Assembly (NCBI GenBank): GCA_947384955.1
Contig: CANDJC010000016.1
Span: forward strand, 1 to 51,494
Origin: an uncultured Eubacterium sp.
Lineage (GTDB): Bacteria > Bacillota > Clostridia > Lachnospirales > Lachnospiraceae
Direction: 5' to 3'
DNA: 51,494 nt
The notes below the pieces were generated by a model, which did no database searches, was not told the DNA's origin, and saw only the letters and a list, made by a program, of their open reading frames with translations. Positions 5,223 through 29,784 of this stretch are shown piece by piece. Made by a program: the position numbers and the translations under genes. How positions within the stretch are numbered: position 1 is the stretch's first letter; the number at the start of each line of letters is the position of its first letter.

Positions 5223-5344
5223 TCATCAGCGCTGACAGCATCAGAGCTTTCGCGACAAGCCTGATAAGAGTTAAAAATCAGCGGGTTTCTTTATATCGTT
5301 AAAGAAGCAGGAGAACAATTTGCCAGATTTTTATCAGATATCAC

Positions 5345-6289
5345 TCAGCACCGCTTTAAGACAGAGCGGATATACACTTCTCTTTCTCCGGCATCAACCA
5401 CATCACACTCCCTACAGAATGGATACCTGTTCCTGCCCCCCCCCGCCATGGCTTTTCTCAGTTTATGAAATTTCTCATTATTCCATATTTCTAACAGCGG
5501 CTCTTTTGTAACATCACCAAAATGCGACTTTTCAAAACAGTCATTACAGCACATGCCGGCCTGCCCGTCTGGAAAGATAAGAAAATCCAAAAACGGATAA
5601 ATACAGGGTGTATTTACTCTGTTATTTTTGACCGGCTTATTCGGTGCATTTCCTGCCCTTGTTGCTAAAATTTCTTTTCTGTATCTCCTGTTTATGGTAA
5701 TGCTCATGCCGGAAAACCGTCTTTTATTTCTTTTTACATGTTTGTAAACTGATTTATGCTGTTTTGAAAGTGCATACTTCTCACTGTAATCATTGATAAC
5801 AATCTCATCCACAAGTCCAGGCATTGCATCCATTTTCTCAGGCGTGAGAAGCGTTCCGTTGCTGATAAGCGAAGTCCTGATTCCCGGCAGATTTTCTTTT
5901 GCGTATTCTGCAAAATGAAGAATGCGCTTATCAATAAACGGCTCGTTATTAATGCTCAGATACAGTTTTCCTTTCCACTGCATTTCCTTCAGCTGCTGAA
6001 TGATTCCGTAAAACATCTCATCCGGCATTTTCTTAAACGGACGGCTTTCATCCTTCGTATTCGCCGGACAGAACTCGCATGTCCCGTTGCAGCGGTTAAC
6101 GGTTTCAATCATGCAGTTTGCAAAAACCGGCGTGTCTTTCTGCCTCATAAAATAAGCAATATATTTTCTGATTAAACGGTCATAGCTTTTCGCTGTAAAT
6201 ACCAGCATCCATTTTGAAGTGATTCCTGAAAAATGTTTTCTAAAAAACCAGATAACCGGACCTCCGAAGCTTCTAATCCTGACTGACAT
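5345..6289 (-). CDS. Radical SAM/SPASM protein in polysaccharide locus (G9 tract)
   Basis: The 314-residue protein has CNGTCEFC near residue 67-74 (CxxxCxxC), the site for the radical SAM 4Fe-4S cluster. A cysteine-rich C-terminal part follows (CIYPFLDF, GMCCNDCF, YPFCRECD), a SPASM-type domain for an auxiliary cluster. I chose the ATG at 6289 (AAGGAG six bases before it) over one 18 bases upstream; it overlaps the preceding methyltransferase by 17 bases. Substrate unknown; the context suggests modification of a sugar or lipid-linked glycan. Nine G at 5436-5444 encode Gly-Gly-Gly near residue 281, just before the last cysteines, so slippage would remove the end of the SPASM domain. Confidence 0.85.
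   Translation of the reverse strand: MSVRIRSFGGPVIWFFRKHFSGITSKWMLVFTAKSYDRLIRKYIAYFMRQKDTPVFANCMIETVNRCNGTCEFCPANTKDESRPFKKMPDEMFYGIIQQLKEMQWKGKLYLSINNEPFIDKRILHFAEYAKENLPGIRTSLISNGTLLTPEKMDAMPGLVDEIVINDYSEKYALSKQHKSVYKHVKRNKRRFSGMSITINRRYRKEILATRAGNAPNKPVKNNRVNTPCIYPFLDFLIFPDGQAGMCCNDCFEKSHFGDVTKEPLLEIWNNEKFHKLRKAMAGGGRNRYPFCRECDVVDAGEREVYIRSVLKRC
5436..5444 (-). repeat. G9 tract 1 (in radical SAM gene)
   Basis: Nine consecutive C on the plus strand, G on the coding strand, inside the radical SAM gene. The present length keeps the frame open. Candidate slipped-strand phase-variation site. Confidence 0.85.
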
Positions 6290-6980
6290 CCTGTTCTCCT
6301 TTACCATTATTTTTTACGATGACAACCATCTGTGTAAGAGGCAGCTTTCTGTTTATAAAACAGTTCATGACTGTTCCCTGCATTTCAAATATATCCTCTG
6401 CTTCCTCATACCGAATCGGCGTTTCATCATGAAACCGCCACACGCCCAGAATCTCCATGCATTTCCTGACGATTCTGTACTTCTTCGTCGGAGTCGGAAA
6501 CGTAATCATAACCGTTCCCTGCGGCCTGCAGCAGTCAAAATGGCGGCTGATCACCGTTTCTACATCTTTTCCCTGAAAATGCTCAATCAGGCCGACACTG
6601 AACACAAAATCATACTTATGAAGCATCTGCCTGTCCGCCTCCTGTTTCAGCAAGTCCAGCTTTATTCCGGAATGAGAACGGCTGTTCATTTTCATCTGAT
6701 TAAAAAGTCTTACAGCCAGACTGTTGCTGTCAGCAATATCATAGACATCTACGTTTCTCATTCTGCAGATCTGTTCTGCAAAACAGCTCCTGCCCCCTCC
6801 GAGTTCCAGTATCTTTAATCCTTTTCCTGCTTCTTTCCCGGAATAGCGGTCGATTGCGCCTATAATTTTTTCCAGGGTAAACTGCTGGGTGTAAGCAGAA
6901 AAACGGCTTTTTTTCTTTTTATAATAGGCCGTCCAGTCTGTCCGGCCGGCATGCTTTTTATCTGCGGCTCCCTTTCTCAT
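6273..6980 (-). CDS. Class I SAM-dependent methyltransferase
   Basis: The 235-residue protein has the Rossmann methyltransferase motif I LKILELGGGRSCFAE near residue 55-69, an acidic end of strand 2 (VDVYDIADSN), and VFSVGLIEHFQG near residue 127-138, a MetW/UbiE-like pattern. Target unknown; placed between the GT2-GtrA gene (four-base ATGA overlap) and the radical SAM gene it probably modifies the same glycan. AAAGGAG lies six bases before the ATG. No homopolymer tract. Confidence 0.82.
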   Translation of the reverse strand: MRKGAADKKHAGRTDWTAYYKKKKSRFSAYTQQFTLEKIIGAIDRYSGKEAGKGLKILELGGGRSCFAEQICRMRNVDVYDIADSNSLAVRLFNQMKMNSRSHSGIKLDLLKQEADRQMLHKYDFVFSVGLIEHFQGKDVETVISRHFDCCRPQGTVMITFPTPTKKYRIVRKCMEILGVWRFHDETPIRYEEAEDIFEMQGTVMNCFINRKLPLTQMVVIVKNNGKGEQDVSQD

Positions 6981-8026
6981 ATCTGCTCCTTTCCCCTTCT
7001 GAAAATCACTGCATGCTGTATGTAGTAATTAAAGAAAAACAGGCAGCCTTCCACCGCTGCCTTAATCACAATCAGCCTGTCTGGCCGGTATTGCGATAAC
7101 GTATTTACTAAAACCGCAGAAACCGTGCCGGAACCGGCCAGCAGAACCAGGTATTCCAGCAGCTGGCGCGGAATGCTTCCTCCCGATTTAAATACGGCAT
7201 TCCTGTTTACACTGAAATTGACACAGGCCGAGCCTGTCCTTCCCAGGGCTGTTGCCAGCCAGACATCTGCCCCCGCGTCTGCGGACAGACTGAAAATGCT
7301 GAAGTCAATCAGCACAGAAAGCAGCGAGCTCAGCAGAAAAGACAGAATCACTTTATAAATCATAACGGAATCCCGGAAAGGGTCAAAATGCGTTTTATGT
7401 TCTGTTTTCGAATCATATACTGTTACAATCGGGACTTCAACAAATTCAAACTCCCCGTTTGCTTCTATCAGAACATTTGTTTCGTAATCAAATCTTTCAC
7501 CTGTCACGGACAGAGATTTTTTCATCAGGCTTCTTGGAATTCCGCGAAGCCCCGTCTGGGTATCAGACAGCTTTATCCCGCATAAATATCTGAAAATCTT
7601 TCTGGTAGCCTCATTCCCAAAACGGCTTCTCCATGGAACCTGCTCTCCCTGAAATTCCCTGCATCCTAAAATAAGGCTGTCTGGATGTTCCTGCAGCGCC
7701 TTCATGCATTTGCTGATATCCTCCGGCCTGTGCTGGCCGTCCGAATCCGCTGTTATGACCCCGGCTGCACTTGGATATTGTTCCAGGACATAGTTAAATG
7801 CGTCTTTCAAAGCACGTCCTTTTCCTAAGTTGACAGCGTGTCTTAATACAGTAAACCCATATGATGATTCAATCCTGTCAAAAATATTTCTGTATTCATG
7901 TCCGCTGCCATCATCAAAAATAATTGTTTCAGTTATGCCAGTGTTATATAAATTTTCACATAAAACGATTAAATTTTTATCCGGTTCGTATGACGGTATA
8001 ATAACCGGAATACAGATGTTATTCAT
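6977..8026 (-). CDS. GT2 polyprenyl-phosphate glycosyltransferase fused to GtrA domain
   Basis: The 349-residue protein has an N-terminal GT-A domain (IPVIIPSYEPD; ADSDGQH near residue 107-113 as the DxD region; QTGLRGIP) like dolichyl/undecaprenyl-phosphate sugar synthases such as GtrB/DPM1. A C-terminal region of about 120 residues follows with four membrane segments typical of GtrA/DPMS flippase domains (SVLIDFSIFSLS, then FSVNRNAVF). It is predicted to load a sugar onto undecaprenyl phosphate and present it outside. I use the ATG at 8026 with AAGGA seven bases upstream; the longer frame needs a TTG. Next to two GT-C-like proteins it suggests a Gtr-type side-chain module. Confidence 0.88.
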   Translation of the reverse strand: MNNICIPVIIPSYEPDKNLIVLCENLYNTGITETIIFDDGSGHEYRNIFDRIESSYGFTVLRHAVNLGKGRALKDAFNYVLEQYPSAAGVITADSDGQHRPEDISKCMKALQEHPDSLILGCREFQGEQVPWRSRFGNEATRKIFRYLCGIKLSDTQTGLRGIPRSLMKKSLSVTGERFDYETNVLIEANGEFEFVEVPIVTVYDSKTEHKTHFDPFRDSVMIYKVILSFLLSSLLSVLIDFSIFSLSADAGADVWLATALGRTGSACVNFSVNRNAVFKSGGSIPRQLLEYLVLLAGSGTVSAVLVNTLSQYRPDRLIVIKAAVEGCLFFFNYYIQHAVIFRRGKEQI

Positions 8027-8185
8027 AAACAATTCCTTCCCTATTTCAAAAGTATTCAACAATTCTTTTTCCAAAATCAGCTGATTTTCCTGCTGCTATT
8101 CCTTCTGAATTCAGAATGTATATACAGATATAAAAAACGCCAGCTCTAAAAAACAGGCTGGAGAATTCTAGCAAACAGAATCTGC

Positions 8186-10129
8186 TCATTCGATGACTTT
8201 TTCCAGACATCCATTATCTTTATTTACACGGAATAAAGAATTATCCTGTATTGCCTCTGGTTCTTTGAATAATTTTCCATAGGTATCCTTGAAGTAATCG
8301 TTTACCCGATACAGTGCCACATAATCGTAACTGCTTAAAAGTTCCTCCTTCCATTCCTTACAGCTTTTCTGGACCGTCCAGATATCGCCGTCATAAAAAG
8401 GCTCTTCTCCCATACTCCATGATCCAAATCCCTCATTTACTGTATTTGGACGTATGTTATATCTTAATATATATTGGTCAAATCCATTATTCGCCTGGGA
8501 AATAATATATACAGCAGAAACATTTTTACAAGTGTGTTTTATTTTATCTGTTATTTCTACATAATTTTGTCTCAATTCAAGTGCATCCTGATAATTTATC
8601 CTCAGTGTTTCTTTCACCAATTCCTTACCAGGCATTGCAAGCAAAATTACAACAATAAATACTGATTGTAATATTTTTCCCTGACAATTCTGACAAAAAA
8701 TAATTTTCCATAACAGTACAAACACTGTTATAGCAGATGCAAGAAAGACAATATTCTCATATCTTCCAAAAGATGCAAGCCTCATAGCTTCATATTGTGA
8801 GAAATTGAACATATAAGTAATGCACATTCCAATGACAAATGCTGCTATCTGAAATATAAATAAAATCATATATAATTTGGCCTGGCTTCTTTTTATCATG
8901 CCTTCTTTTACAACACATTTTAATGAAATATATATAAATAAAATTTCTATCACCATAAGTGACATATAGTTTAGAGAAATACCTGTATGTCCAAAAGAAA
9001 CATATGGTTCAAACAAGGCCTGAATGTAATTTTTCATTACATCTAACCGATAGGAATTATCCTTACCAAGGATAACATTTAACAGAACCATATAATTTAT
9101 TCTAATCTTTGCTGATACATTCTCTAAACCAGAACATTTTATTTCATAATTCCACAATAATTTTGGAACAGCCACAAAAAGCATTGTTATAAAAACATAT
9201 AAAAACTCTTGTATGATTCCTTTTTTACTATTACTGATACCCCCCCCCTTACATATCAGACGATCCAAGATATACAATACTGCCAAAATCACGGCAAATA
9301 ACATTCCGGCATCTTTAACCAAAACCAACGCTGCTGTAATAAACCAGATATAGACTGAATATAAAATATTTTTTTTACGTTCCATCCCCCAGACAACAAC
9401 AGCAGAAAATCCACTTCCTGCAAGAACAGCCAGAAACGGGTCGATATACGCTTTAGAATAAACTTCATTATAAAATATAGGCGGCACCAGCAAAATAATC
9501 CCAGCCAGGGATAATGCTTTCATTACCTGTTCCCATTTTATGTTTGAAAACAAAGGTAAAAGTACAGCTACAAACAATATCTGCCATGCAAAATAGCATC
9601 TCCATTCCATAAAACCAGCTTCTGGATGAATAAGAAGAAAAACCTTCTGCATCAGATATTGAAACAACGACATAATTGGAGGATACGTTTTAAACATAGA
9701 ATATGAAAGCGGATTTGTTCCAAAATCATCCAGTTCAGTCATCACTTTTACAATATCAATCCAATGTGAAAACTCATCCCAGCTGTGGGCCAGCAAACCA
9801 CGCAGAACCAGACTTGATCCAGTAAAAAAAATTAAGAAAAAGCAGAGTCCAGGTGTAACAATGTTACAAATAATCTGTTTCATATATTCCTTGCCTTTGT
9901 CTTTATGTTTCACCACCAATATGAAGCATCCTGCATACATTAACGCAGATAAAACAAGCACTGCATAAAATCCATATGTCAGATTCCCAAATATGCCAAA
10001 TAAAAATAATACCAGCGAATATCCAATGCATGTAATTGGCAAAATCTCCTCATATTTTTTATCAAATCTAGCTGCGCAAAATAAACTTCCTGATGAAATT
10101 ATTAACAAAAACACTATATTAACTAACAT
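8186..10129 (-). CDS. Large GT-C-like integral membrane protein 1 (G9 tract)
   Basis: About 647 residues with roughly twelve hydrophobic segments and a soluble C-terminal tail. Near residue 118 of the first outer loop lies HSWDEFSHW, an acidic motif placed as in GT-C glycosyltransferases that use polyprenyl-phosphate sugars. Its neighbour at 10168-12021 has the same size, a WDE motif at the same place and a similar ending (NSLFRVN versus NSLWKVN), so the two are paralogs. The ATG at 10129 aligns with the paralog's start; one 30 bases earlier is possible. A G9 run at 9240-9248 encodes Gly-Gly-Gly near residue 293. The GT-C role is inferred from layout and neighbours. Confidence 0.75.
   Translation of the reverse strand: MLVNIVFLLIISSGSLFCAARFDKKYEEILPITCIGYSLVLFLFGIFGNLTYGFYAVLVLSALMYAGCFILVVKHKDKGKEYMKQIICNIVTPGLCFFLIFFTGSSLVLRGLLAHSWDEFSHWIDIVKVMTELDDFGTNPLSYSMFKTYPPIMSLFQYLMQKVFLLIHPEAGFMEWRCYFAWQILFVAVLLPLFSNIKWEQVMKALSLAGIILLVPPIFYNEVYSKAYIDPFLAVLAGSGFSAVVVWGMERKKNILYSVYIWFITAALVLVKDAGMLFAVILAVLYILDRLICKGGGISNSKKGIIQEFLYVFITMLFVAVPKLLWNYEIKCSGLENVSAKIRINYMVLLNVILGKDNSYRLDVMKNYIQALFEPYVSFGHTGISLNYMSLMVIEILFIYISLKCVVKEGMIKRSQAKLYMILFIFQIAAFVIGMCITYMFNFSQYEAMRLASFGRYENIVFLASAITVFVLLWKIIFCQNCQGKILQSVFIVVILLAMPGKELVKETLRINYQDALELRQNYVEITDKIKHTCKNVSAVYIISQANNGFDQYILRYNIRPNTVNEGFGSWSMGEEPFYDGDIWTVQKSCKEWKEELLSSYDYVALYRVNDYFKDTYGKLFKEPEAIQDNSLFRVNKDNGCLEKVIE
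9240..9248 (-). repeat. G9 tract 2 (in GT-C-like gene 1)
   Basis: Nine G on the coding strand within K-G-G-G-I; frame open at this length. Confidence 0.85.
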
Positions 10130-10167
10130 ATATCTCACTTCTTTCTTCAAAAATACCATTCAAACTC

Positions 10168-12021
10168 TTATTCTGCCAGCCGCAGCAGCACGTCTTCTCC
10201 ATCTCCATTCACTTTCCAGAGAGAATTCTCTTTCACATCTTCCGAAAACATATCCCCAAACTGTTCAGCAAATCGTTCACTAATTCCCTGAATCCATACA
10301 TAGCTACATTGTTCCTCGTTCAAAAAATTCCGAAACTGATTTCTGGCATCTTGAATATCCTGTGGTATATCTGAATCTGTTGATACATTTGTAATATCAT
10401 AATAATTTTTAACATGATATTTTTTACCCAGAGATTCAAAATAAATTCTATGATGACATAATGAATACAGGCCAAGGTCCCACCCTTCACATATGACATA
10501 TATATTAACATTTTCTTTAAGTCCGATTAACTTCATTTTCTCATTCAGTGCCAATGATGATTCTATACCTGTTTCTACAGCTGGCTTACATACATTATCA
10601 AGCCCTTTTGCCGAATGAAATGGAAATACTGCAAACACAGATATGAATATCAGCTGTGTCAGCAGTCTATTCAAACGCCTTCCTTCCCATATTGCTTTGA
10701 AGTTTTCCGAAAACATAAAAAAAATAAAAACCACCATAGCACATAACATTGTACAAGTATATCTCGGAAAGGACGATGTACTTTCCTTACCCCCATATAT
10801 CAAGTATAAACCAGCCATAAAAAAGAAAGTGCATACATTTAATGTCATATACGAAACAAAATACCTTCTTCTTTTTTCTCTGCCAGACATCGCTCCTACA
10901 ATAAATAATATTACTGTCAGTATGAAATACACCATGATAAAACTGCATGTATTAATCAAATCTGGATAATCTGTCTGAATTACATTCGTTAAAAAAATTT
11001 CTTTCACAAATGATTTTAGAGCCGTTCCATCACGCAATAAAGAGCTGTGAAAACCAACTATATTTTTCACATTTTCACGAAAACAAAGTATCTGCCATAT
11101 ACCCCAGACAAAAACATTACTTAAAAGCAGCATGCCTCCTTTTATGAGCCACTGCCCGTTTTTTCTTTTTTCATAAATCATTGCTCCTAGAATAACAATC
11201 ACGGTAAGAACTATCCCAGAACTTTTTAAAAGAACCAGTGTAATCAGTGCTGCAGCTAATCTGAAAAAAGAAAATAGCTCTGTAAATACCCCCCCCCGCG
11301 TCATCAGATATAATAAATATCCCAATGTCAGCCCTATGATAGGATCTACAAACAGGCTGGCATAAAAATTTGCAAAATCAAAAGAACTGTTATAACACAA
11401 CGCTGGAATCAAAAAAATGATAATTACCGCAATCGGAATTTTATAATATTCTTTCCACTTCAATTCTGAAAACCCAGCTGCCAGCAGAGAAGATGCATAA
11501 ACCCCGTAAGAGAAAAAAAGTGTGGATTCTCTAAAATTAAAAGAACATTTTTCAAAAAAATATGCCCACAGTGATATTCCAGGAATATAAGATCTCATAC
11601 CAGTAAACATCAGGGAATCACTTGACAGCTGAAATTTTCCTGTATAAAACAATATTTTAGGATATGCGCCCCATAAACGCAGTTCATCCCATAATGAAAC
11701 AATATTATCTTTTGTAATGATATATATCAGGATAAGTGATAATAACCAAATGAGAACGCATGGACGAAACAGAACTTTTGCAAGGGAATTTCGCCTGTTT
11801 TTTGTTTTCAGCCAAAATATGATTGAAATCACTGCTCCAAAGAAAAATGTGATTATTATATAAAAACCAGCCAGCAGCATGTCTATGCAATAAAATAAAT
11901 ATAAAACAGTTATAATTAAACCTATTACTACAGGAAGCATTTCCACAAAATTCTTATTAAACTTTACCGCTCCCCATAATGTTATTGACATTACTACTAT
12001 AATCGGAATAAAAACCGTCAT
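10168..12021 (-). CDS. Large GT-C-like integral membrane protein 2 (G9 tract)
   Basis: The 617-residue multi-pass membrane protein starts with a hydrophobic segment and has SLWDELRLWGAYP near residue 108-120, matching the WDE loop of the protein at 8186-10129. A cytosolic or external domain of about 130 residues closes the protein. Predicted GT-C type glycosyltransferase or a related oligosaccharide-modifying enzyme; no closer family recognised. A G9 run at 11289-11297 encodes part of T-R-G-G-V near residue 241, so slippage would leave only the first third. The gene is AT-rich compared with the flanks. It follows the nucleotidyltransferase fusion by about 50 bases. Confidence 0.75.
   Translation of the reverse strand: MTVFIPIIVVMSITLWGAVKFNKNFVEMLPVVIGLIITVLYLFYCIDMLLAGFYIIITFFFGAVISIIFWLKTKNRRNSLAKVLFRPCVLIWLLSLILIYIITKDNIVSLWDELRLWGAYPKILFYTGKFQLSSDSLMFTGMRSYIPGISLWAYFFEKCSFNFRESTLFFSYGVYASSLLAAGFSELKWKEYYKIPIAVIIIFLIPALCYNSSFDFANFYASLFVDPIIGLTLGYLLYLMTRGGVFTELFSFFRLAAALITLVLLKSSGIVLTVIVILGAMIYEKRKNGQWLIKGGMLLLSNVFVWGIWQILCFRENVKNIVGFHSSLLRDGTALKSFVKEIFLTNVIQTDYPDLINTCSFIMVYFILTVILFIVGAMSGREKRRRYFVSYMTLNVCTFFFMAGLYLIYGGKESTSSFPRYTCTMLCAMVVFIFFMFSENFKAIWEGRRLNRLLTQLIFISVFAVFPFHSAKGLDNVCKPAVETGIESSLALNEKMKLIGLKENVNIYVICEGWDLGLYSLCHHRIYFESLGKKYHVKNYYDITNVSTDSDIPQDIQDARNQFRNFLNEEQCSYVWIQGISERFAEQFGDMFSEDVKENSLWKVNGDGEDVLLRLAE
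11289..11297 (-). repeat. G9 tract 3 (in GT-C-like gene 2)
   Basis: Nine G on the coding strand within R-G-G-V; frame open at this length. Confidence 0.85.
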
Positions 12022-12071
12022 ATATAATTACCTCTTGCTAATTCAAAGATACTCCAAAACTTCCCAGAATT

Positions 12072-13883
12072 TCAATCTATCTTACATATTCTGCGAGCAG
12101 CATCCAAAAAAATATTATTTTCCTTTTCATTCCTGACTGCAATCCTGACATAATTTTTTCCGCCAAGCTTTTCCGATAAATCCTTAATCAATATATTTTC
12201 ATCCTCCAAAAGTTTTTCCGTAAACTCTTTCGATGACATTTTCCCTGTCAGTTCAGCCATGATATAATTTGCCTGTGATGGAACAACCCTCATACCATTT
12301 ATATCTGACAGTTCTTTCATGAACCTTTCCCTTTCTGTCTTCAGCTTAACCAGGGAAAGCTGATAATCTGTTTTGTACTTCTCCTCAATTTGCATATAAA
12401 ACTCTGCAAAAGAATTAATATTCCATATAGATACAGATTTTTTCACCTGTGCAACAGCACCATCATTTCCAGATGCTAAAACTCCCAGCCTCAATCCCGG
12501 CACACCGTATGACTTAGATATGCTTTTTACGACAAAAAGATGCGGATTCTGTTCCAATAAATCCTGCCTGATTAATGTCTGTCCCTCATTTGCAAAATCT
12601 GCAAAAGATTCGTCAATTACAAGCTTTATTCCTCTGTCTTTACTCCATCCAATCAGCTTCTGTAAACCTTTATATGAAATATAGTTTCCTGACGGATTAT
12701 CTGGATTGATGATAATCAGGCTTTCAATATCCTTCCCGCAAAAAAATTTCTCCAGATCACTTTCATCATATCTGTAATCCTTGCCAGACGGAACATAAAT
12801 AACAGCATCATTATTGCCATAACGATTTAAATATTCCTCAAAAGCGGGTCTGACAAACCCCGCTTTTCGGATTATACTTTCCATCAATACCTTTATCAAT
12901 TCTGCCGCTCCGTTTCCAACAGCAATATTTTGTTCCATTACTCCAAAATTCCTGGATGCAAGCAGTGAATTTACCCGCATTCCAGACGGATACTGCGTCA
13001 GAAGCCTGTCAAAGCTGGCCTTCATCTCATCCTTCATTTTTATGGACGGAAAATATGGATTAACCAAATAGCAAAAATCCAAAAGTTTGGGATAACGCCA
13101 ATATCCTCCATATCTGCCAGCTGTCAGACATAATTTCCCTGCTGCATCTTCCGCAAACATGGAAGACGCGATATCCAGATCCTGAATATCGTCTATTTCA
13201 TACCATTTCTGTCCGTGAAGTCTTTTTGCCTTTATTGCCGGCTGATCCAGTACAGCAATAACACGCAGAACTTGTTCATAATACTCATTATTTCCAAGCG
13301 CTTTTATATAGGCCTTTAGAAACGGTACATAATAGTTCTGTGAAAAATTCTGACTGAATTTGTATATATTTACCGTTTTATAATAGTTTCCGCTCTCGCT
13401 ATACTGAAACCTGCTTCCTGGAACAAATTCCAGTATGTTGTCATCATCGTCCAATTTCATGCATGTACCATCCATCCAGCTTTCGTACCTGTCAGCCAGT
13501 GCCAGCGTGTCCCGCGGATCAATGATAAGCTCTTTCAAAACAGAATCCTCAAATATCAGGTCAGACTCAAACAAAAGTGTATCTTCTCTGCATAGCCAGT
13601 CTCCTGCCAGAGAAAGTGAATATATATTATTTGTCCTGTCATATGTATCATTCCATATGAAAACAAGCGGTGTATGAATATTCAATTGTTTAACATGATT
13701 TATCAGTTTCCTTCCCTCATATCCGACCACAATAATGATTCTGGACAGACTGCACACTTCAATCTGTCTGAGCATTCTGTCAATCAAAGGAATTCCATTT
13801 ATTTTAACCATGCATTTTGTATTATTTTGCGTAAGATGCTTCAACCTTTTTCCCATCCCCGCTGCCAGTATAACAGCCTGCAT
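12072..13883 (-). CDS. Bifunctional LicC-like nucleotidyltransferase / CobD-HisC-like PLP enzyme
   Basis: About 603 residues. Residues 1-235 are a sugar/choline-phosphate nucleotidyltransferase domain (LAAGMGKRL at 6-14, then a KCMVKINGIPLI lysine region, as in LicC). Residues 250-603 are a fold-type I PLP enzyme close to HisC/CobD: NPDNPSGNY near 393, VIDESFADF with the PLP Asp near 424, and SISKSYG with the predicted Schiff-base Lys near 457. CobD-like enzymes decarboxylate threonine phosphate, and Campylobacter relatives decarboxylate serine phosphate to phosphoethanolamine. The fusion could make and then CTP-activate such an alcohol phosphate for the nearby LicD. Start chosen at 13883 (AGGAG eight bases upstream). 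A transaminase role is the alternative. Confidence 0.85.
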   Translation of the reverse strand: MQAVILAAGMGKRLKHLTQNNTKCMVKINGIPLIDRMLRQIEVCSLSRIIIVVGYEGRKLINHVKQLNIHTPLVFIWNDTYDRTNNIYSLSLAGDWLCREDTLLFESDLIFEDSVLKELIIDPRDTLALADRYESWMDGTCMKLDDDDNILEFVPGSRFQYSESGNYYKTVNIYKFSQNFSQNYYVPFLKAYIKALGNNEYYEQVLRVIAVLDQPAIKAKRLHGQKWYEIDDIQDLDIASSMFAEDAAGKLCLTAGRYGGYWRYPKLLDFCYLVNPYFPSIKMKDEMKASFDRLLTQYPSGMRVNSLLASRNFGVMEQNIAVGNGAAELIKVLMESIIRKAGFVRPAFEEYLNRYGNNDAVIYVPSGKDYRYDESDLEKFFCGKDIESLIIINPDNPSGNYISYKGLQKLIGWSKDRGIKLVIDESFADFANEGQTLIRQDLLEQNPHLFVVKSISKSYGVPGLRLGVLASGNDGAVAQVKKSVSIWNINSFAEFYMQIEEKYKTDYQLSLVKLKTERERFMKELSDINGMRVVPSQANYIMAELTGKMSSKEFTEKLLEDENILIKDLSEKLGGKNYVRIAVRNEKENNIFLDAARRICKID

Positions 13884-13909
13884 ATGTTCTTCTCCTACCT
13901 CTTCCACTA

Positions 13910-14635
13910 CTATAAAATATAACAGTTAAAAAGAAATTCTCCATTGATATATTCCGGGTTTTCTACTCCTGTATAAATAACTTTTTTTCCATAGTCTGAT
14001 GCAATCTTTTCAATCCAAGTCTTATCGAAAAAAAGTTTAGATAGCCCGTCATATTTTGTACTGTAGTCTTCTATCGCCCGTTCTCGCAAATCCATTAATT
14101 CCTGTTCATATTCAGCATTATGTATTTCCCCTAAATAAGTCAGTTTTCTGCTCTTTGTAATCATTTTTCGGAGTACGGATTCTGCATATTCAAGAGAGTC
14201 AAAATACTGAAATACACTTTCAGACATCACAATGTCATATTTCGGATTTACAGATATATCATCCGCTTCGCAGCATAAAAAATCATCTGAACCCGTTATT
14301 TCTTTGGCACTACGAATCATGGCAGCTGAGTAATCAATCCCACCCACTTTGCATTTACCCCCCCCCAGACGATTTTGAAACAAATACAGATTTACACCGC
14401 TTCCACATCCAATTTCAAAAATACTCCCGATATTCATACCTATCAGTTCTCGAACTTTATCAAAAAATGCAAGCCATTCATTATAAAATGCCCTGTAATA
14501 CACTTCTTCATTTTCTACTGCAACATCAAATCCATTTGCTTTTTTTAATACACAAAACTGTTCAAATTCGGTTTTACCCTTGTCACCCGTAACAGACTGT
14601 TTTCGATTCCATATTTCCTTCCACCTTTTTGCCAT
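13910..14635 (-). CDS. Class I SAM methyltransferase (G9 tract)
   Basis: The 241-residue protein has IFEIGCGSGVNLYLFQNRL near residue 68-86, GGIDYSAAMI and VMSESVFQYF, the standard motifs of small-molecule methyltransferases. It sits between licD and the nucleotidyltransferase-PLP fusion, so methylation of the amino-alcohol phosphate or of the sugar carrying it is plausible but unproven. The G9 run at 14358-14366 (L-G-G-G-K, near residue 90) lies directly behind the SAM-binding motif, so a slip would kill the enzyme. GGAGG lies 8 bases before the ATG. Confidence 0.82.
   Translation of the reverse strand: MAKRWKEIWNRKQSVTGDKGKTEFEQFCVLKKANGFDVAVENEEVYYRAFYNEWLAFFDKVRELIGMNIGSIFEIGCGSGVNLYLFQNRLGGGKCKVGGIDYSAAMIRSAKEITGSDDFLCCEADDISVNPKYDIVMSESVFQYFDSLEYAESVLRKMITKSRKLTYLGEIHNAEYEQELMDLRERAIEDYSTKYDGLSKLFFDKTWIEKIASDYGKKVIYTGVENPEYINGEFLFNCYIL
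14358..14366 (-). repeat. G9 tract 4 (in methyltransferase gene)
   Basis: Nine G on the coding strand within L-G-G-G-K; frame open at this length. Confidence 0.85.
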
Positions 14636-14705
14636 TATAGTCCTCCATGAAAATCAATTTTAAAACATTATCTCCTATATAACCCTTTTTATCGCCTATT
14701 ATTGT

Positions 14706-15524
14706 TCATCTTATTTTAGAATTTTTCCAAAAGACCTTACACTGATGATGTGTAACCCGCTCTTCCACAGGCGGAAGCTTCATATAATCGCCATAAAAGT
14801 TTGTTAAAACTTCATCATACCCTTTCGGTATTTTAAATTGAAATCCTTCGAAATCAGCCATCAAATATTCCTCAAAACAGCTTTTATGAGCTCTGTCTCC
14901 AAGTTCAAAAAAGAAGCATTCCGTCGAACCTGCGTACACAGAATTCTGGTAGTTATATTTCTGGTGATATTTTTTTGCTGTATTTAATAATCCCTTTTTT
15001 CCGCGAAATACATATTTCACAATTCCATATGCAATCCAGCTCTTTATATTAAACTGCTTCTTATCCGAATTAAAAATAAAATGAAGCTTATAAATAAACT
15101 TTAATTTTTTACACCATTTTACAAAAGCAGCTTCGTTATCAGGCTGTCCGTCTAAAGGAAATACATCAATATCTACGCCAGGGACATAGGATTTATATTC
15201 GATTCCTTTTTCAATTTTTATAGTTCTTTTGTCAACTATTTTTACCATTGGATGATGGGATGATGCTGAATATGGAGATACCAGATGCAGATTTTTATTT
15301 TGGCAGCATTTATTAAAAGATGCGGTCAATTTTTCATAATCATCTCTCGGAACATAAATGTCAATATCATCATCCCAGGGAATAAAACCTTTGTGCCTGA
15401 CAGCGCCCAGTAGTGTGCCATATGCCAAAAAATATGTAAGTTTCCTTGAATCGCAAAAATCTGCTACTTCCTTTAAAATTTGAAGCTGTATTTTTTTATG
15501 TTCGTTAAATCCTATTTCAACCAT
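14706..15524 (-). CDS. licD: LicD family phosphotransferase
   Basis: The 272-residue protein has the LicD signature GTLLGAVRHKGFIPWDDDID near residue 37-56 with the metal-binding Asp triad, and IDVFPLDG near residue 94-101. LicD proteins transfer phosphocholine or similar groups from CDP-activated donors to glycans. The neighbouring fusion protein may provide the donor. A terminator-like or promoter signal was not seen; the gap to the methyltransferase is 70 bases, consistent with one transcript. No membrane segment; acts at the inner face of the membrane. Confidence 0.92.
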   Translation of the reverse strand: MVEIGFNEHKKIQLQILKEVADFCDSRKLTYFLAYGTLLGAVRHKGFIPWDDDIDIYVPRDDYEKLTASFNKCCQNKNLHLVSPYSASSHHPMVKIVDKRTIKIEKGIEYKSYVPGVDIDVFPLDGQPDNEAAFVKWCKKLKFIYKLHFIFNSDKKQFNIKSWIAYGIVKYVFRGKKGLLNTAKKYHQKYNYQNSVYAGSTECFFFELGDRAHKSCFEEYLMADFEGFQFKIPKGYDEVLTNFYGDYMKLPPVEERVTHHQCKVFWKNSKIR

Positions 15525-15564
15525 GCAGACCCTTTCTATTTTAAAAGGCTAAATTTAAAAATTA

Positions 15565-16914
15565 TTATAATCTCCAATATTTTAACCCTGAAATTTCAAG
15601 CTGCTCTATACTATAAATACCCTTCACATCAATTAATACCTTTTCATTATCTAAAATATCTGTTCTGTACAATTTTTTTATTTCTTTCAAATCCATATCC
15701 ATAAATTCTTTATGTGCAACCGCCATAATGATACAGTCCGCATCCCTAATATCTTTTAAATCAGTTAGTTCAACATGATATACCAGCCTGGCATCTTCTT
15801 TTGAAGCCCATGGGTCAGCAATCATCGGATTAATTCCAAATTCATTTAGCCTTTTTGCTATATCGTATACCTTACTATTTCTAATATCAGGACAGTTCTC
15901 CTTAAATGTCAGCCCAAATATGACCACTCTGCTCTTCTTTGGTGTCTGCCCTGCCTCTATCATTTTTTTTATCGCGGCATTTGCCACATAAATTCCCATC
16001 GAATCATTCACAATCCTGCCGTTTAAAATTATCTGGCTATGATATCCAAGTTTTTCTGCTTCATATGTAAAATAATACGGGTCTACTCCGATACAATGCC
16101 CGCCAACGAGTCCTGGCCTGAAACCAAGTGCATTCCATTTTGTGTTCATTCCATCGATTACTTCATTTGTATCTATTTCCATACGGTCAAATACCATAGC
16201 CAATTCATTCATAAACGCGATATTCAAATCCCTCTGTGAATTTTCAACCACTTTGATTGCCTCCGCTGTCTTTATATTACTGACAGGATATGTTCCAGCC
16301 TCAATAACCAGATTATAAACATTTCGAATGACATTAAGACTTTTCTTATCCGTTGCAGATACCACCTTACATATTTTTGATAATGTATGAATTTTATCGC
16401 CTGGATTAATACGTTCCGGGCTGTATCCTACCTTAAAATCATCACCACATGTCAGCCCGGATTCGTGTTCTAAAATAGGTATGCATATATCTTCTGTCAC
16501 ACCTGGATAAACTGTCGATTCATATACTATAATAGTTTCAGGTTCTAGATTTCTGCCAACAATAGCACTCGCCTGCTCAACCGGATAAAGGTCTGGTGTA
16601 TGATCTGTATTTACTGGAGTAGGCACTGCCACAATAATAAAACGAGCTTTTTTCAGCTCGTCCTCATTTGCTGTATATTTTATTTTCAAAGACTTAATTG
16701 TCTCTGTTCCAATTTCGTTCGTAGGATCAATCCCAGATTTGTACATCCTGATTTTTTCCTTATTAATATCAAAACCTATAACATTCAGACCTTTGTTTGC
16801 GAAAGCTGCTGCTATAGGCATTCCAACGTACCCAAGTCCGACTACTGCCAGAATAGCCTCTCTATTTTCCAGCTGTTCATACAATTCAGCGTTCTTATTC
16901 ACTTTAGTTTTCAT
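15565..16914 (-). CDS. UDP-HexNAc 6-dehydrogenase (TviB/WbpO type)
   Basis: The 449-residue enzyme has VVGLGYVGMPIAAAF (NAD site, near residue 24-38), VAVPTPVN, YESTVYPG, GYSPERINPGDK and GGHCIGVDPYY near residue 265-275 with the catalytic cysteine. These fit the UDP-GlcNAc/UDP-GalNAc dehydrogenases TviB and WbpO better than UDP-Glc dehydrogenase. It would supply a UDP-N-acetylhexosaminuronic acid for the repeat unit, giving an acidic polymer. A strong AAGGAGG site precedes the ATG. Exact sugar (GlcNAcA or GalNAcA) cannot be told. Confidence 0.9.
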   Translation of the reverse strand: MKTKVNKNAELYEQLENREAILAVVGLGYVGMPIAAAFANKGLNVIGFDINKEKIRMYKSGIDPTNEIGTETIKSLKIKYTANEDELKKARFIIVAVPTPVNTDHTPDLYPVEQASAIVGRNLEPETIIVYESTVYPGVTEDICIPILEHESGLTCGDDFKVGYSPERINPGDKIHTLSKICKVVSATDKKSLNVIRNVYNLVIEAGTYPVSNIKTAEAIKVVENSQRDLNIAFMNELAMVFDRMEIDTNEVIDGMNTKWNALGFRPGLVGGHCIGVDPYYFTYEAEKLGYHSQIILNGRIVNDSMGIYVANAAIKKMIEAGQTPKKSRVVIFGLTFKENCPDIRNSKVYDIAKRLNEFGINPMIADPWASKEDARLVYHVELTDLKDIRDADCIIMAVAHKEFMDMDLKEIKKLYRTDILDNEKVLIDVKGIYSIEQLEISGLKYWRL

Positions 16915-16932
16915 ATTAAGCTGCCTCCTTTT

Positions 16933-17643
16933 TTATAATGAACAAAGAAATTTGTTTTTATATGATGCAATTACACAGCAATATGTTGCTCCTTCATATA
17001 TTGTATCAGTGTACTTAATATGATTACTATCTAAAATCTGTTTTATTTGTAAACATGTATTTCTTTCCCCTGTCCGATTAACATCATCAATAATTATCAC
17101 AAATTCCCTTTCAAGAATATCAGGAAGCAATTCCAAAATATCCGTTCGTGACTTACATTTTCCTCCAAACGGAGCATCTACAGAAATAATTTGAAACTTA
17201 TATCCATGTAGTGATTCTGATAAATTTTCATAAGCATAATGTTCATCATTTCCAGATCCCTTTTTAACTAATTTTTGTTTCTTAACAACGCTGCATGAAG
17301 GTAACGGATGAGATTTTTCATAAAATTCTATCCAGTCATTATCATGCTCTGCTATAAAATGTACTGCATCCGCATTATCTGTATTCTCAAAATATTTCGA
17401 TATAAGTGTTGTAGAAGCACCCAGTCCAAGTTCCAAAACACTCACAGGCTTTAAATCATTTAGTATTCGGGTCATTATATATAAATAGTTGTAACCTACA
17501 GCCCATCGCCCTGGTGATATACCTGGCATATTTTCCAGCCATGGGACCCCTTTCAGTGTATCATGCCACACATTCGCCCAGATTAGTTCATCGTTTTGAT
17601 TCTTTAACGCCCTAAAAAAATTTTTAATTCCTTTAAAAGTCAT
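16933..17643 (-). CDS. SAM methyltransferase-like Rossmann protein
   Basis: The 236-residue protein has VSVLELGLGASTTLISKYF near residue 62-80 (motif I) and IISVDAPFGG and FVIIIDDVNRTGE later in the fold. It resembles class I methyltransferase-like proteins found in capsule loci, but the second half is atypical and the acceptor cannot be told. It lies four bases after the flippase gene and 18 bases before the dehydrogenase. AAGGAG lies 8 bases before the ATG. Confidence 0.6.
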   Translation of the reverse strand: MTFKGIKNFFRALKNQNDELIWANVWHDTLKGVPWLENMPGISPGRWAVGYNYLYIMTRILNDLKPVSVLELGLGASTTLISKYFENTDNADAVHFIAEHDNDWIEFYEKSHPLPSCSVVKKQKLVKKGSGNDEHYAYENLSESLHGYKFQIISVDAPFGGKCKSRTDILELLPDILEREFVIIIDDVNRTGERNTCLQIKQILDSNHIKYTDTIYEGATYCCVIASYKNKFLCSL

Positions 17644-17647
17644 TATT

Positions 17648-19177
17648 TTATCTCCTTCGGATTTTTACCCGTGCAGTAAACCAGTGTTTTGTCTGTTTAT
17701 ATATTTCTGATTTAAAATAAACCAAAAAATATAAAAAAGGCGAAACGGTGCAGCAAATAAATGCTCGAATTATAAATACCGTTAGAATATCTCCTTTAAA
17801 CAAATTACAAATACTCATTACAACAACAACATTCGCAGCTGTTACCAAAGCATAAAGAAAATGGCTTTTAAGATATACATCCATTCCCTGTACAAAATAA
17901 TACTTGAACGCTACAATTGTAGAACCTATAAAGCCAAACAAAAACAATGAAATTGCCGTAGCCAGAATGATTCCAAAAACTTTCCATTTAAGAACAAATA
18001 AATAGTTAAGTACGATATTTGATATTGCTTCTAATATAATCCTGTATCGGTTCTCCCACCAAAGGCCTGCTCCATCTGCATACACCGCTCTTATCTGACC
18101 CATACATAAAATATAAAAATACACAGAAAATAGAACTGCTGCCTCAGATGAAAACATATTCTCTTTTCCAAGCCATAATTCCATAAATGGCTGATACAAA
18201 CAAATTAGACATACAGTACACCATCCGCTTAAAAGCATGAAAATAAAATCAAGTTTTTTCATGTCTTCATAGTTCTTTTGTATTGTTTCTGAAGCAATAC
18301 TGTTCCCAACACCCGCCAGCAGAGAAGCTGAGAATGTAGTCATAAACCCTGATACACTGGTCAGAATATGATAATAATTATTATAGATTCCTGTAACATT
18401 CAGCCCAATAAACATTGACAAAAAAATATTATCAAATGAATTTCTTGTCACTCCGCAAATTCTTGCCATTGCCAGTCCCATTGTTTTTTTCTTAATAGAT
18501 GCCATGGTATGTGCAGACACTTTTCCATAGCATTTATACTGAGGATACATTATATCAACAAACAAGCCAATTAATAAATTGTTAGCCACTGTATTTAATA
18601 ACAAAGTTATGAGATACATGTAAAAATTCTTATAATAAATCAGTGAAACAACTTGCAAAATACTAGTACCGATAGTTGTTATTAAGCTGACAATACTCAC
18701 AATATCCAGACGCTGAAATGCATTTAACAAAGAAACTTTATAAGCTAAAAACCAATAAGACAGAACGGTATTCATCAAATACATAAGATAAACGATATAA
18801 ATGTTTACATCTGATGGATAAGTTCCCTTAATAAATCCTTTCAAAAATGGCACAACAATTAACCCGGCACATAGTACGATACAGCCTACTATATGATAAA
18901 TCTTTTTATATAAGTTCAGCAAAGCACAAATCTGTTCATTATCGTCATTGGCTATCGGCCCATACATACTAAAAACAAGTGCACTTCCAAACCCCAGTTC
19001 TGCAAGACTTAATACTTGCAGTATAGAATTGAACATTCCTTTTAAACCATTATACTCGGCGCCTAATGTTTTAATAAATACGGTCTGTGTAATAAAAGGC
19101 AGCAAAATCGTAACCGATTTTGAAAAAACTCCAACTATAACATTTCTTTTTGCATTACCTGATCGTTTCAATTTCAT
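17648..19177 (-). CDS. wzx: Wzx-type polysaccharide flippase
   Basis: The 509-residue protein begins with a basic segment and then about twelve to fourteen membrane segments (VFSKSVTILLPFITQTVFI near residue 17-35 is the first), with the conserved LAELGFGSALVFSMYGP region of the MOP/PST flippase superfamily. It would flip the undecaprenyl-pyrophosphate-linked repeat unit across the membrane. Its start overlaps the upstream GT2 stop by four bases. It has no G tract. Confidence 0.9.
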   Translation of the reverse strand: MKLKRSGNAKRNVIVGVFSKSVTILLPFITQTVFIKTLGAEYNGLKGMFNSILQVLSLAELGFGSALVFSMYGPIANDDNEQICALLNLYKKIYHIVGCIVLCAGLIVVPFLKGFIKGTYPSDVNIYIVYLMYLMNTVLSYWFLAYKVSLLNAFQRLDIVSIVSLITTIGTSILQVVSLIYYKNFYMYLITLLLNTVANNLLIGLFVDIMYPQYKCYGKVSAHTMASIKKKTMGLAMARICGVTRNSFDNIFLSMFIGLNVTGIYNNYYHILTSVSGFMTTFSASLLAGVGNSIASETIQKNYEDMKKLDFIFMLLSGWCTVCLICLYQPFMELWLGKENMFSSEAAVLFSVYFYILCMGQIRAVYADGAGLWWENRYRIILEAISNIVLNYLFVLKWKVFGIILATAISLFLFGFIGSTIVAFKYYFVQGMDVYLKSHFLYALVTAANVVVVMSICNLFKGDILTVFIIRAFICCTVSPFLYFLVYFKSEIYKQTKHWFTARVKIRRR

Positions 19178-20169
19178 CGGACTGGCCCATTCATTTTTCT
19201 ATACAGCGCTATACATAAATTAATACTTCTGTACATTCCCATTAAAATTAAAATCTTTAAAAATTTCTTCTTTAAAGTTTCTGGTTTCACCTTCTTTACC
19301 AGCATCTTTAGTCCCGCATCTGAAACAATATTTTTCATTTCCTGGCTGCTGTTTCCAATCAAAACCTGAACTAGCAGAGCATTATACAGGTAACAGCAAA
19401 AACTCTCAAAATCATTTTCATCCGGCATTATCCCCCATTTTCTATGCAGTGTACATACTTCTTTATAGATTCTTGATATTGTCTTATAATAATCTGTTTT
19501 TATTTTTTTGTTCTGACTTACTAATCCCTGGCGATAATGATAATAAGCTGATTGAAACAGCTGTATACTTTCAATCTTATCAAAATATCTATAATTAAAT
19601 ACGATATCCTGAGACCTGTACAAGTCTGGAAATAAGATTCTATTCTTTTTAATAATTTGGGATTTGTACATTTTTGTCACAGGTCCTCTTATTAACCCTT
19701 GTGAAAATAAATTAAGATATTGTTCGCGTATATTCTTAGTACCGCATAAAAATCTTTCATTTATCACATCATATTCACTGGAAATTAATCTGCCCCTATC
19801 ATAAAAATCTGAAGTGCTCCCAGAAATCAGCAAATCAGCCCCGCTGTCTGTCATTCGCTTTTCATAATCCTCCAGCATTTCTGATTCTATCCAGTCATCT
19901 GGGTCAATAAACATCATATAATTGCCAGTTGCCTTAGACATTCCTTTATTACGGGCTATTCCCGATCCACGATTTTCCTGCACTTCTACAAGAAATCTTG
20001 GGTCCCTTTTTTCCCACTCTCTTGCAAGCTTTTCAGTATCATCAGTTGCTCCATCAATGACAATAATTGCTTCCCAGTTTTGATATGTCTGATTTGATAT
20101 GCTTTTTAAACATTTATCAATATATTGTTCAACGTTATATGCTGGTATGATGATACTAATTTTTTTCAT
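19174..20169 (-). CDS. Family 2 glycosyltransferase
   Basis: About 331 residues with a GT-A domain at the N-terminus: KISIIIPAYNVEQYIDKCL, VIDGATDDT, FIDPDDW near residue 89-95 (DxD). The C-terminal third is a helical extension common in capsule GT2 enzymes. I use the ATG at 20169; an earlier GTG is three codons upstream and closer to the AAGGAG site, so the true start is uncertain by three residues. It transfers a sugar in repeat-unit assembly; donor and acceptor unknown. Confidence 0.88.
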   Translation of the reverse strand: MKKISIIIPAYNVEQYIDKCLKSISNQTYQNWEAIIVIDGATDDTEKLAREWEKRDPRFLVEVQENRGSGIARNKGMSKATGNYMMFIDPDDWIESEMLEDYEKRMTDSGADLLISGSTSDFYDRGRLISSEYDVINERFLCGTKNIREQYLNLFSQGLIRGPVTKMYKSQIIKKNRILFPDLYRSQDIVFNYRYFDKIESIQLFQSAYYHYRQGLVSQNKKIKTDYYKTISRIYKEVCTLHRKWGIMPDENDFESFCCYLYNALLVQVLIGNSSQEMKNIVSDAGLKMLVKKVKPETLKKKFLKILILMGMYRSINLCIALYRKMNGPVR

Positions 20170-20218
20170 AGATAACACAATCTCCTTCTTAGATCAAATT
20201 TTTACTCTCTGCAAGTTC

Positions 20219-21505
20219 CTACAAATATTGAGATTTTCCACTAGAATTTATATCCTGATAAATTTCTATCAGACATTCAATATTCTTTTTTACATTTGAC
20301 ATCTTGTCCATCCGTTCTTTTGCGCACTGGGATAATTTTTGTGACAGCAAATCATTCTCAAATATCTGTTGAATATAATATGCCAGCATATACGGTTCAT
20401 TTGCCGGATACAAATATCCCTCTTTACCATGTTCCAAAAGAGACGAAACTCCTCCAACATCTGATGCAACAGAAGGAACCCCCAGTTTCATAGCTTCGCA
20501 GAGTGAATTCGGTGAATTTTCAATAACAGAAGGTAAAATATACACATGAGAATTTAAATATCTTTCTATCATCTCGCTTGCGGAAAGTTCTCCTAAAAAT
20601 ACTACATGTTTTTGCAATTCCCATTTCTTTATCATTTTTCTTATATAATTCGCATAAGAACCTGTGCGCAGCACTTTATTCAGCCGTTTAAATGTAAACA
20701 AATCGTAACCTGCTACATATAGTTTTATATTTGGAAAGCTTTCCCGTAGCTGACATAACGCTTCTAATGCCAAATGCAGCCCCTTAATCGGATATGACCC
20801 TTGCGACATAAAAATAGAATATTTTTCGCATGTTTCCTTTTTCCAATTCCTTTTTTCTTCTCTAAATTCTTTTCTCAGATTCTCTGGGCAATAATAATAT
20901 TTTAAGGACGGATTTATCTTCTTTGTTGCTGCTTTATCAAACTCTGTCCTTCCCATTACATTTTTAACACCCTTTAATGCCAGAATTTCATATTTCCCCC
21001 GCCGGTCAAATTTTTTCTTTTGCAGGGCGATGTTATCGAGCCGGATTATATCGCGAATGGTTACGCCATAATAAACCTTTGCAGGCAAAAAAGCCCGGTA
21101 CACCCCCCCCCAGAAAAAAATCAGTCCCTGAATATGAATAACTGTTTTCTGAGGATTATGAAAGCTTCTAACCATTGCCAAAGCATGCGGATATTCTGTC
21201 CCAAATATATGTACAATATCTGGGCGAAACTCATCCAATATAATACGGAATTTTTTTTCTAATGATTGATCATATCTATATACTTTACGCTTTTCTGTTT
21301 GAAATCCATAAAACACAGCCTTTTTATACGCAGCTTTTGTAATTTTTTTTCTATCATTCAAAGGTGCACAATATGCAAGAGATACATCCTCTTCCATCAG
21401 CTGCTCAAATGTATCAACAAGCCACCCTCCACTGTTTCCTTCTCTTTGATGTATAACTTTTTGAATCTGTGGAATAATTACATTGCAAAGCCATAATATT
21501 CTCAT
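20219..21505 (-). CDS. Family 4 glycosyltransferase (G9 tract)
   Basis: The 428-residue GT-B enzyme has an N-terminal acceptor domain and a C-terminal GT4 domain with MSQGSYPIKGLHLALEAL (near residue 233-250), LYVAGYD and the EX7E motif ENSPNSLCE followed by AMKLGVPSVASDVGG. A G9 run at 21103-21111 encodes part of W-G-G-V near residue 132 in the N-terminal domain, so a frame slip would abolish the donor-binding half. A phase-variable transferase here would change or end the repeat unit. It follows the other GT-B gene by six bases. Confidence 0.9.
   Translation of the reverse strand: MRILWLCNVIIPQIQKVIHQREGNSGGWLVDTFEQLMEEDVSLAYCAPLNDRKKITKAAYKKAVFYGFQTEKRKVYRYDQSLEKKFRIILDEFRPDIVHIFGTEYPHALAMVRSFHNPQKTVIHIQGLIFFWGGVYRAFLPAKVYYGVTIRDIIRLDNIALQKKKFDRRGKYEILALKGVKNVMGRTEFDKAATKKINPSLKYYYCPENLRKEFREEKRNWKKETCEKYSIFMSQGSYPIKGLHLALEALCQLRESFPNIKLYVAGYDLFTFKRLNKVLRTGSYANYIRKMIKKWELQKHVVFLGELSASEMIERYLNSHVYILPSVIENSPNSLCEAMKLGVPSVASDVGGVSSLLEHGKEGYLYPANEPYMLAYYIQQIFENDLLSQKLSQCAKERMDKMSNVKKNIECLIEIYQDINSSGKSQYL
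21103..21111 (-). repeat. G9 tract 5 (in GT4 gene)
   Basis: Nine G on the coding strand within W-G-G-V; frame open at this length. Confidence 0.85.
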
Positions 21506-29778: not shown

Positions 29779-29784
29779 GTTAGT

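Follow-up and report, generated by a model that had tools for sequence, protein, structure and literature searches.

In Bacteroides fragilis, the Mpi system comprises several capsule operons, each with an invertible promoter bounded by inverted repeats, and Gardnerella, which shows homopolymer phase variation, is not a proteobacterium and belongs to a phylum different from that of the Clostridia. Here we describe a polysaccharide operon that carries five runs of nine G within its genes (G9 tracts) and is preceded by an invertible-looking element with a promoter-like site. It lies in a 51,494-nucleotide stretch of DNA (the window) from an uncultured Eubacterium sp. of the Lachnospiraceae (GenBank GCA_947384955.1, CANDJC010000016.1), which is contig C16 of a 5.06-Mb assembly of 271 contigs. 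We consider it probable that phase variation in this organism has two layers, one formed by about 100 slippage tracts spread over the genome, and the other by a flippable promoter in front of the window operon.

In Campylobacter, as far as the available part of the PhasomeIt source goes, 53% of the tracts have 9 G, and each strain has 5-81 phase-variable genes at a cut-off of at least 7. The tracts described here resemble that poly-G phasome in having G on the coding strand, in lying mostly in open reading frames (ORFs) and in a mode of 9 G, as well as in belonging to genes for surface structures, which are the genes named in the accessible portion of PMC13317227. They differ in being found in a genus of Clostridia, with 116 runs of at least nine G in one genome (some outside genes) against 5-81 phase-variable genes at a cut-off of at least 7, and in occurring together with full-length mutS and mutL genes, a TA signature and invertible-looking promoters; slippage here is putative.

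As in the Mpi system, several candidate polysaccharide operons of one genome each have a putative promoter bounded by inverted repeats, and an antiterminator gene is found near the operon start (UpxY in B. fragilis, LoaP in the window). In contrast to B. fragilis, the repeats have locus-specific cores, the operons start with helix-turn-helix (HTH) and Wzz-like genes, LoaP was found at one locus only, and G tracts lie inside the operons. The resemblance to Mpi and Upx is functional only, and no sequence relation is claimed. Invertons are already known in Clostridia: the consulted sections of PMC11892184, which cite the B. fragilis capsule promoters, report a median of 3 invertons per genome in Clostridia-like strains, with orientation shifts in culture, and an inverton group (139) that is linked to a tyrosine recombinase, with 32 of its 33 members from Clostridia. 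The elements of the window genome are likened to these gut invertons by description, not by repeat sequence, and a set of such operons in one Clostridia genome does not figure in the descriptions given in those sections. The Gardnerella system is likewise mediated by simple sequence repeats, while flipping promoters are not part of its description in the available text of PMC11287997. Whether multi-locus phase-variable systems are restricted to pathogens is treated as an open question in the part of a review at hand (PMC11868660), and the present genome, in which about 100 G tracts stand beside about a dozen promoters that are candidates for flipping, would bear directly on it. Among the matches listed in a limited literature search, there was no description of a set of G tracts in Lachnospiraceae, nor of a system combining G tracts with flippable promoters.

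G tracts in the window and its genome

An earlier note, made from the letters of this DNA alone, had presented the five tracts as a coordinated phase-variable set in one capsule locus. All five are present where it placed them (Table 1), C9 on the + strand being G9 on the coding − strand, and they are indeed the only such runs: over the whole window there is no other G or C run of at least 7, and a single run of 6. Its statement that they are extremely unlikely by chance agrees with dinucleotide shuffles, which give 0.30 expected runs and five or more in 0 of 100 shuffles, and with Markov models (order 2-4, with the runs left out of the training), which give 0.015-0.028 in the window. Each tract lies in a different ORF of one polysaccharide operon, in a region that is AT-rich as described (37.1% G+C for 1360-27536, against 46.1% elsewhere in the window). 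Every one of the five ORFs reads through its tract, with a codon phase at the tract start of 2, 2, 1, 2 and 1, so the frames are all open, as the note had said. When G7, G8 or G10 is substituted, the computed frame closes 3-42 codons past the tract start; the gain or loss of one G would alter or truncate all five products, and in the radical SAM gene a length change would alter the last tenth only.

The tracts are not peculiar to this locus. The genome holds 116 runs of at least nine G, where Markov models expect 0.2-13, and the counts in 12 further species of the genus range from 3 to 97, against 0 to 14 in 24 genomes from other genera of the family. At the level of the order, 24 genomes have 0 to 19, except for one with 95 (G053, from another family, 3.5 Mb; TA follows 5 of its 15 sampled runs). 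The coordination proposed for the set also finds no support, as there is no sign that slippage coordinates the five tracts, which share an operon.

We surveyed run lengths in 41 stretches (500,711 bp), of which 31 surround tracts, one is the window and nine are control contig starts. G or C runs number 242 at length 5, fall to 18, 4 and 3 at lengths 6, 7 and 8, and rise to 40 at length 9, with 14 longer, the counts from length 9 upwards being inflated by the choice of stretches around tracts. No run of at least 8 was found in the nine control stretches of 20 kb. Among 54 sampled runs of at least 9, 39 lie inside ORFs, 38 of them with G on the coding strand. A Pfam scan of 45 tract ORFs (E up to 1e-3 in the window set and 1e-5 in the others; a few short or second-half ORFs omitted, and both halves of one split gene counted) assigned a family to 30, of which 24 are transferases or sugar-type enzymes: methyl-, glycosyl-, acyl- and acetyltransferases, radical SAM, ATP-grasp, FrhB, dehydratase, capsule and asparagine-synthase types. 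Six ORFs fall outside these types, namely an alpha/beta hydrolase, a DUF6625 protein, an antiterminator, an AraC regulator and a pair of solute-binding proteins. Rfam searches of nine stretches that contain intergenic tracts gave no match above thresholds. The genome also has G runs of 18 and 19 (G000:C4:33578-33595 and C10:82-100), of which the second lies close to the start of its contig and may be a sequencing artefact.

Tracts were classed as ON or OFF by strict open-frame criteria. In the window genome 16 are ON and 7 OFF of 23 classified (p = 4e-4 against a chance of 1/3 ON), while other genomes and 80 named loci together give 13 ON and 21 OFF of 34; ON tracts are found in all three codon phases. 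The G9TA sites of the window genome (33 collected of 37 existing) comprise 24 ON, 3 OFF and 6 undecided. Given these proportions, five ON tracts in the window are not unusual for this genome. An Acyl_transf_3 gene is split between two frames exactly at a G11 tract, and in other genomes tract lengths vary from 8 to 14, along with the ON/OFF states. In a paralog of a tract gene other than the GT4 gene, the run is interrupted by one A (GGGGAGGGG at the site).

This anatomy, namely the excess over chance, the sense-strand bias, the ON and OFF copies, the different lengths in relatives, the glycan genes and a length mode like that of Campylobacter, fits the slipped-strand contingency reading of the earlier note, and we infer from it that the tracts slip in living cells. 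G tracts are also present in the strain records D16-56 and 1XD21-70, so this layer should be testable in culture. In the genomes behind these two records, an orthologous pair of loci (L202 and L213, 80%) shares a G10 at one site, after which the two sequences differ by a 2-bp indel. An intergenic repeat with two copies in the window genome (81% over 302 bp; L031:4802 and L038:3486) has G8 in one copy and G12 at the same place in the other. Mismatch-repair loss was rejected as the cause of the many tracts: the window genome has both mutS1 and mutL at full length, length alone being no proof of function, and genome G009, in which full mutS1 and mutL were not found, carries just 3 tracts.

The bases following the tracts are also biased. 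In a survey of 161 runs of at least 8 from the window genome, the 80 named loci and seven other genomes, TA directly follows 82 (51%; TAT 38, TAA 24, TAC 14, TAG 6) and TGA follows none, whereas TA comes next in 6.0% of 2610 matched short G runs on the same strand within 800 bp; T is also enriched upstream, at −3 and −5. In long ORFs of the window genome, TA follows 20 of 28 exact G9 runs, against 5-7% of runs of 3 to 5, and none of eight longer sense runs of 10-12. Exact G9TAW occurs 139 times in 13 genomes of the genus, against 13 mirror controls (summed). Elsewhere in the family, 198 genomes from other genera contain exact G9TA 146 times, against 28 mirror controls (also summed), and 61 of them have at least one such site. 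The signal is weak in 20 further genomes, most of them labelled as other families (G8TA 6, against 4 mirror controls); they include Pseudobutyrivibrio, Butyrivibrio and Oribacterium, which we take to be Lachnospiraceae. A table of variable tracts in C. jejuni has, in the available part of PMC7173850, TA after 2 of the 3 G tracts whose two next bases are readable.

Selection for early stops was rejected as the main reason for TA, since TGA never follows a tract and TAT or TAC accounts for 52 of the 82 cases, even though out-of-frame stops come sooner after TA tracts (median 2 nt to the nearest, n = 13) than after short G runs (18 nt, n = 2316). We also considered that the weak stacking of the TA step raises slippage. 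The idea that G9TAW forms a fixed-length class separate from slippage is weakened by the TA-followed runs of other genomes, which span 8-14. The TA signature is a new and simple clue to how such tracts arise or persist.

Candidate invertible promoters and their operons

Upstream of the window operon, an inverted-repeat search of 26900-31000 returned 13 pairs, the strongest with arms at 29752-29779 and 30046-30073 that match in 26 of 28 nt and lie 266 nt apart. They bound a 322-bp candidate inverton with a promoter-like site (Table 1), which the earlier note had missed, having caught the second layer, slippage, at one locus. The arms follow, with few changes, a 25-nt dyad of the form ATAACA-TTT-nnnnn-AAA-TGTTAT. 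A search of the genome with the arm gave 22 matches, corresponding to 21 distinct arms, and none with a reversed control pattern. Ten complete elements of 310-333 bp are found on contigs C16, C34, C8, C15, C38, C60, C78, C133, C26 and C23, and an eleventh at C38:4414-4735. In addition, the end of contig C107 and the start of contig C71 sit exactly at arms with an identical core, and these two are taken as the halves of a twelfth, probably broken, element. Arm-like dyads with up to 4 mismatches are rare elsewhere: 500 kb of the window genome contain 6, including 4 element arms, and 1.82 Mb from other genomes contain 10, of which 2 form one element.

The 5-nt core at the centre of the dyad is equal in both arms at all ten loci compared; between loci it is equal in 16 of 180 comparisons, some cores being shared. 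At one end of the spacer, 61 bp from the end, all eleven complete elements and one element from a sister species have a conserved site formed by TTGCAA or TTGTAA, 17 nt, and TAGAAT or TAAAAT. In the sister species (taken to be genome G006, L222), the same element lies before an HTH homolog, with the site facing away.

The first genes of all ten readable operons, to one side of the element, are paralogs of an HTH type (49-85% identical) and of a Wzz-like type (31-53% identical), and HTH and Wzz-like genes also follow the arm on C71. ORFs of at least 110 aa run on a single strand from the HTH gene to the tract genes on C15 (3 tracts), C34 (3) and C8 (2), which places G tracts inside element-led operons there, as in the window (5). 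Contigs C38, C23 and C71 carry tracts too, the stretch between HTH gene and tracts having been read in part. By analogy with the window, where the Pfam check was mainly made, all eleven operons may make polysaccharides.

The direction of the conserved site, readable at ten loci in this assembly, is toward the operon in the window only and away from it at the nine others. For independent, even orientations, the probability of at most one ON of ten is 0.011, and the pattern thus suggests an orientation bias or one-at-a-time expression, with the assembly giving consensus orientations only.

Proposed two-layer switching and its alternatives

In the two-layer reading, a recombinase, putatively of the tyrosine type, would invert the element of about 320 bp before each of at least eleven HTH and Wzz-like operons, and an operon would be ON when the inner promoter, presumed active, faces it, the window locus being the sole ON locus of the ten readable ones. 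The locus-specific 5-nt crossover cores, some of them shared, would limit recombination between loci, which suggests a way for a single recombinase to act on many promoters while the order of the chromosome is preserved. Within an active operon, one G gained or lost would then shift the frame and truncate a transferase or modifying enzyme, and the structure of the polymer would presumably change. If true, two stacked switches would provide a very large repertoire of surface sugars, of relevance to phages, IgA and strain persistence. A more specific version is possible and is offered tentatively: at least eleven operons with barcoded promoters, all flipped by one recombinase and most of them kept apart by their locus-specific cores, would form a one-at-a-time switch with mainly a single operon ON, and as an independent layer G tracts with a conserved 3' TA (and T at −5 and −3), perhaps a dedicated hypermutation signature, would vary the enzymes of the active operon. 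We give this version less confidence because the best-scoring promoter-like site near the element (30083-30054, − strand), located at the right arm with part of it beyond the element, would point to the operon whichever way the element is turned.

That site also weighs against the two-layer reading itself, as do several other observations. Promoter-like sites number 7 between 29600 and 30200, where shuffles give 3.4 ± 1.7, and some other elements have weaker promoter-like sites pointing the opposite way; as the conserved site is outscored by 30083-30054, the ON/OFF reading rests on its conservation, not on its score. A simple motif scan of the examined stretches, which are part of the genome, found no recombinase. 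The element at C38:4414-4735 has no HTH gene in the stretch examined, the sister-species stretch has no Wzz-like match, and LoaP is absent from the stretches examined of the ten other loci; in the window, a gap of 326 bp separates LoaP from the Wzz-like gene. As for the tracts, the two orthologous pairs found between genomes are of equal length in both, and 22 of 23 sampled TA-followed runs in the window genome are exactly 9, a near-fixed length, narrower than a rapidly slipping population might give. Full-length mutS1 and mutL should slow slippage, and the assemblies, on which this analysis is based, showed no mixture of tract lengths or of element orientations.

The G9 runs could alternatively be stable and encode short glycine stretches under functional constraint, without any switching. 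The five window runs are all in frame, as are 24 of the 33 examined G9TA runs (of 37 in the genome), and a length of 9 preserves the frame. We nevertheless find this very unlikely, since homologs of the GT4 protein lack the glycines, the paralog mentioned above has GGGGAGGGG at the site, ON tracts use all three codon phases, OFF copies and intergenic runs exist, and TA after the run is a feature at the DNA level. The same TA could instead mark the G run as a sequence-specific site for a nuclease, a recombinase or another factor, with slippage secondary or absent. The excess of TA over short runs (82 of 161 against 6.0% of 2610), the T enrichment at −3 and −5 and the count of exact G9TAW sites across the genus (139 in 13 genomes, with 13 mirror controls) would all suit such a site, which is still quite unlikely in our view: TA-followed runs have lengths of 8 to 14, as slippage would yield, no partner protein is known, and the part of PMC7173850 available shows length variation in two C. 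jejuni tracts that stand in a TAT context. Sequencing or assembly artefacts are a highly improbable source of the runs or elements. Some runs do sit at contig ends (C10, C19, C35), where poly-G artefacts occur, but internal runs keep their frames, a G run followed by TA recurs in many separate genomes and records, and the elements have paired arms with matched cores and lie next to paralogous genes.

For the elements, the main alternative is that the 322-bp inverted repeats are regulatory dyads, for example operators for the HTH protein, and that a fixed promoter drives the operon. Each arm is a palindrome-like dyad, as repressor operators are, an HTH gene heads each readable operon, and the promoter-like site at the right arm would serve the window operon in either orientation. 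A 5-nt core that is locus-specific and matched at 10 of 10 loci is needed for strand exchange and not for operators; moreover, the conserved site points toward the operon at one locus and away at nine, and the breaks of contigs C107 and C71 fall at arms of identical core. We therefore regard operators with a fixed promoter as unlikely, and favour invertible promoters in front of operons with slipping G tracts.

Operon genes and other features

Table 1. Tracts, genes and element of the window operon, in window coordinates
Feature	Position	Strand	Details
G9 tract	5436-5444	−	in radical SAM/SPASM gene, starts at codon 288; next bases CAG
G9 tract	9240-9248	−	in gene for 657-aa membrane protein; next bases TAT
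G9 tract	11289-11297	−	in gene for 617-aa membrane protein; next bases TAT
G9 tract	14358-14366	−	in methyltransferase gene; next bases TAA
G9 tract	21103-21111	−	in glycosyltransferase gene; next bases TGT
Polysaccharide genes	3819-26915	−	GT2, GT4, Wzx-like (Polysacc_synt), UDP-sugar dehydrogenase, LicD, acetyltransferase
Polysacc_synt_2 gene	3819-4868	−	behind a 476-bp gap
Radical SAM/SPASM protein, 320 aa	5345-6307	−	tract gene; Pfam PF04055, PF13186
657-aa protein	8186-10159	−	tract gene; 13 transmembrane-like segments; no Pfam or NCBIfam family
617-aa protein	10168-12021	−	tract gene; 10 transmembrane-like segments; no known family
SAM-dependent methyltransferase, 241 aa	13910-14635	−	tract gene; Pfam
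GT4-type glycosyltransferase, 428 aa	20219-21505	−	tract gene
LoaP transcription antiterminator	26943-27536	−	above NCBIfam cut-off
Wzz-like protein, 477 aa	27863-29296	−	paralogs at nine other loci, 31-39% identical
HTH protein (Cro/CI type)	29338-29670	−	first gene of operon; paralogs at nine other inverton loci, 49-61% identical
Candidate invertible promoter element, 322 bp	29752-30073		upstream of operon
Left arm	29752-29776		25-nt dyad, core CTAAT
Right arm	30049-30073		core as in left arm, inverted
Promoter-like site, TTGTAA-N17-TAGAAT	29785-29813	−	inside element, faces operon, read as ON

The genes from 5345 to 27536 are separated by at most 111 bp, and the 476-bp gap is followed by three nucleotide-sugar genes. 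Within this gap there is a second inverted repeat, a weaker one, with 17-nt arms (88%) at 4952-4968 and 5210-5226 that lie 241 nt apart. The polysaccharide genes also include a nucleotidyltransferase-aminotransferase fusion (12072-13907), which lies near LicD (14706-15524), and a weak Wzy_C match; LicD together with the fusion suggests a phosphocholine- or phosphonate-like decoration of the polymer. The Wzz label comes from weak Pfam matches under the cut-off in three scanned paralogs (E 0.005-0.065), the window copy having none.

The 657-aa tract protein is a distant paralog (23%) of the adjacent 617-aa protein, and our guess is that both are perhaps membrane glycosyltransferases; searches with the 657-aa protein returned no sequence relatives among solved structures at E up to 1, and none on viral contigs. 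Homologs of the GT4 protein in two sister species, 36-38% identical, have neither the tract nor the glycines at that place. Named relatives of the Polysacc_synt_2 protein are mostly from Lachnospiraceae and other Clostridia, and the source organism presumably lives in the gut.

Outside the operon, a dispersed and mostly intergenic repeat with the core GGACGCCGGG occurs in the window at 40871-40880 (+), 41220-41229 (−) and 51449-51458 (+), and in 30 further copies in the examined stretches of the genome. A G run of at least 8 lies within 60 bp upstream in 11 of the 33 copies, some copies are near contig ends, and nine stretches gave no Rfam match for the repeat. Two diverging AAA-ATPase_like / PDDEXK_9 proteins are encoded next to each other at 41908-45400, and a related protein of 529 aa adjoins the C78 inverton. 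Finally, a 33-bp tandem repeat of 3.9 copies is present at 32935-33063, near the 3' end of a penicillin-binding protein gene (32824-35733).

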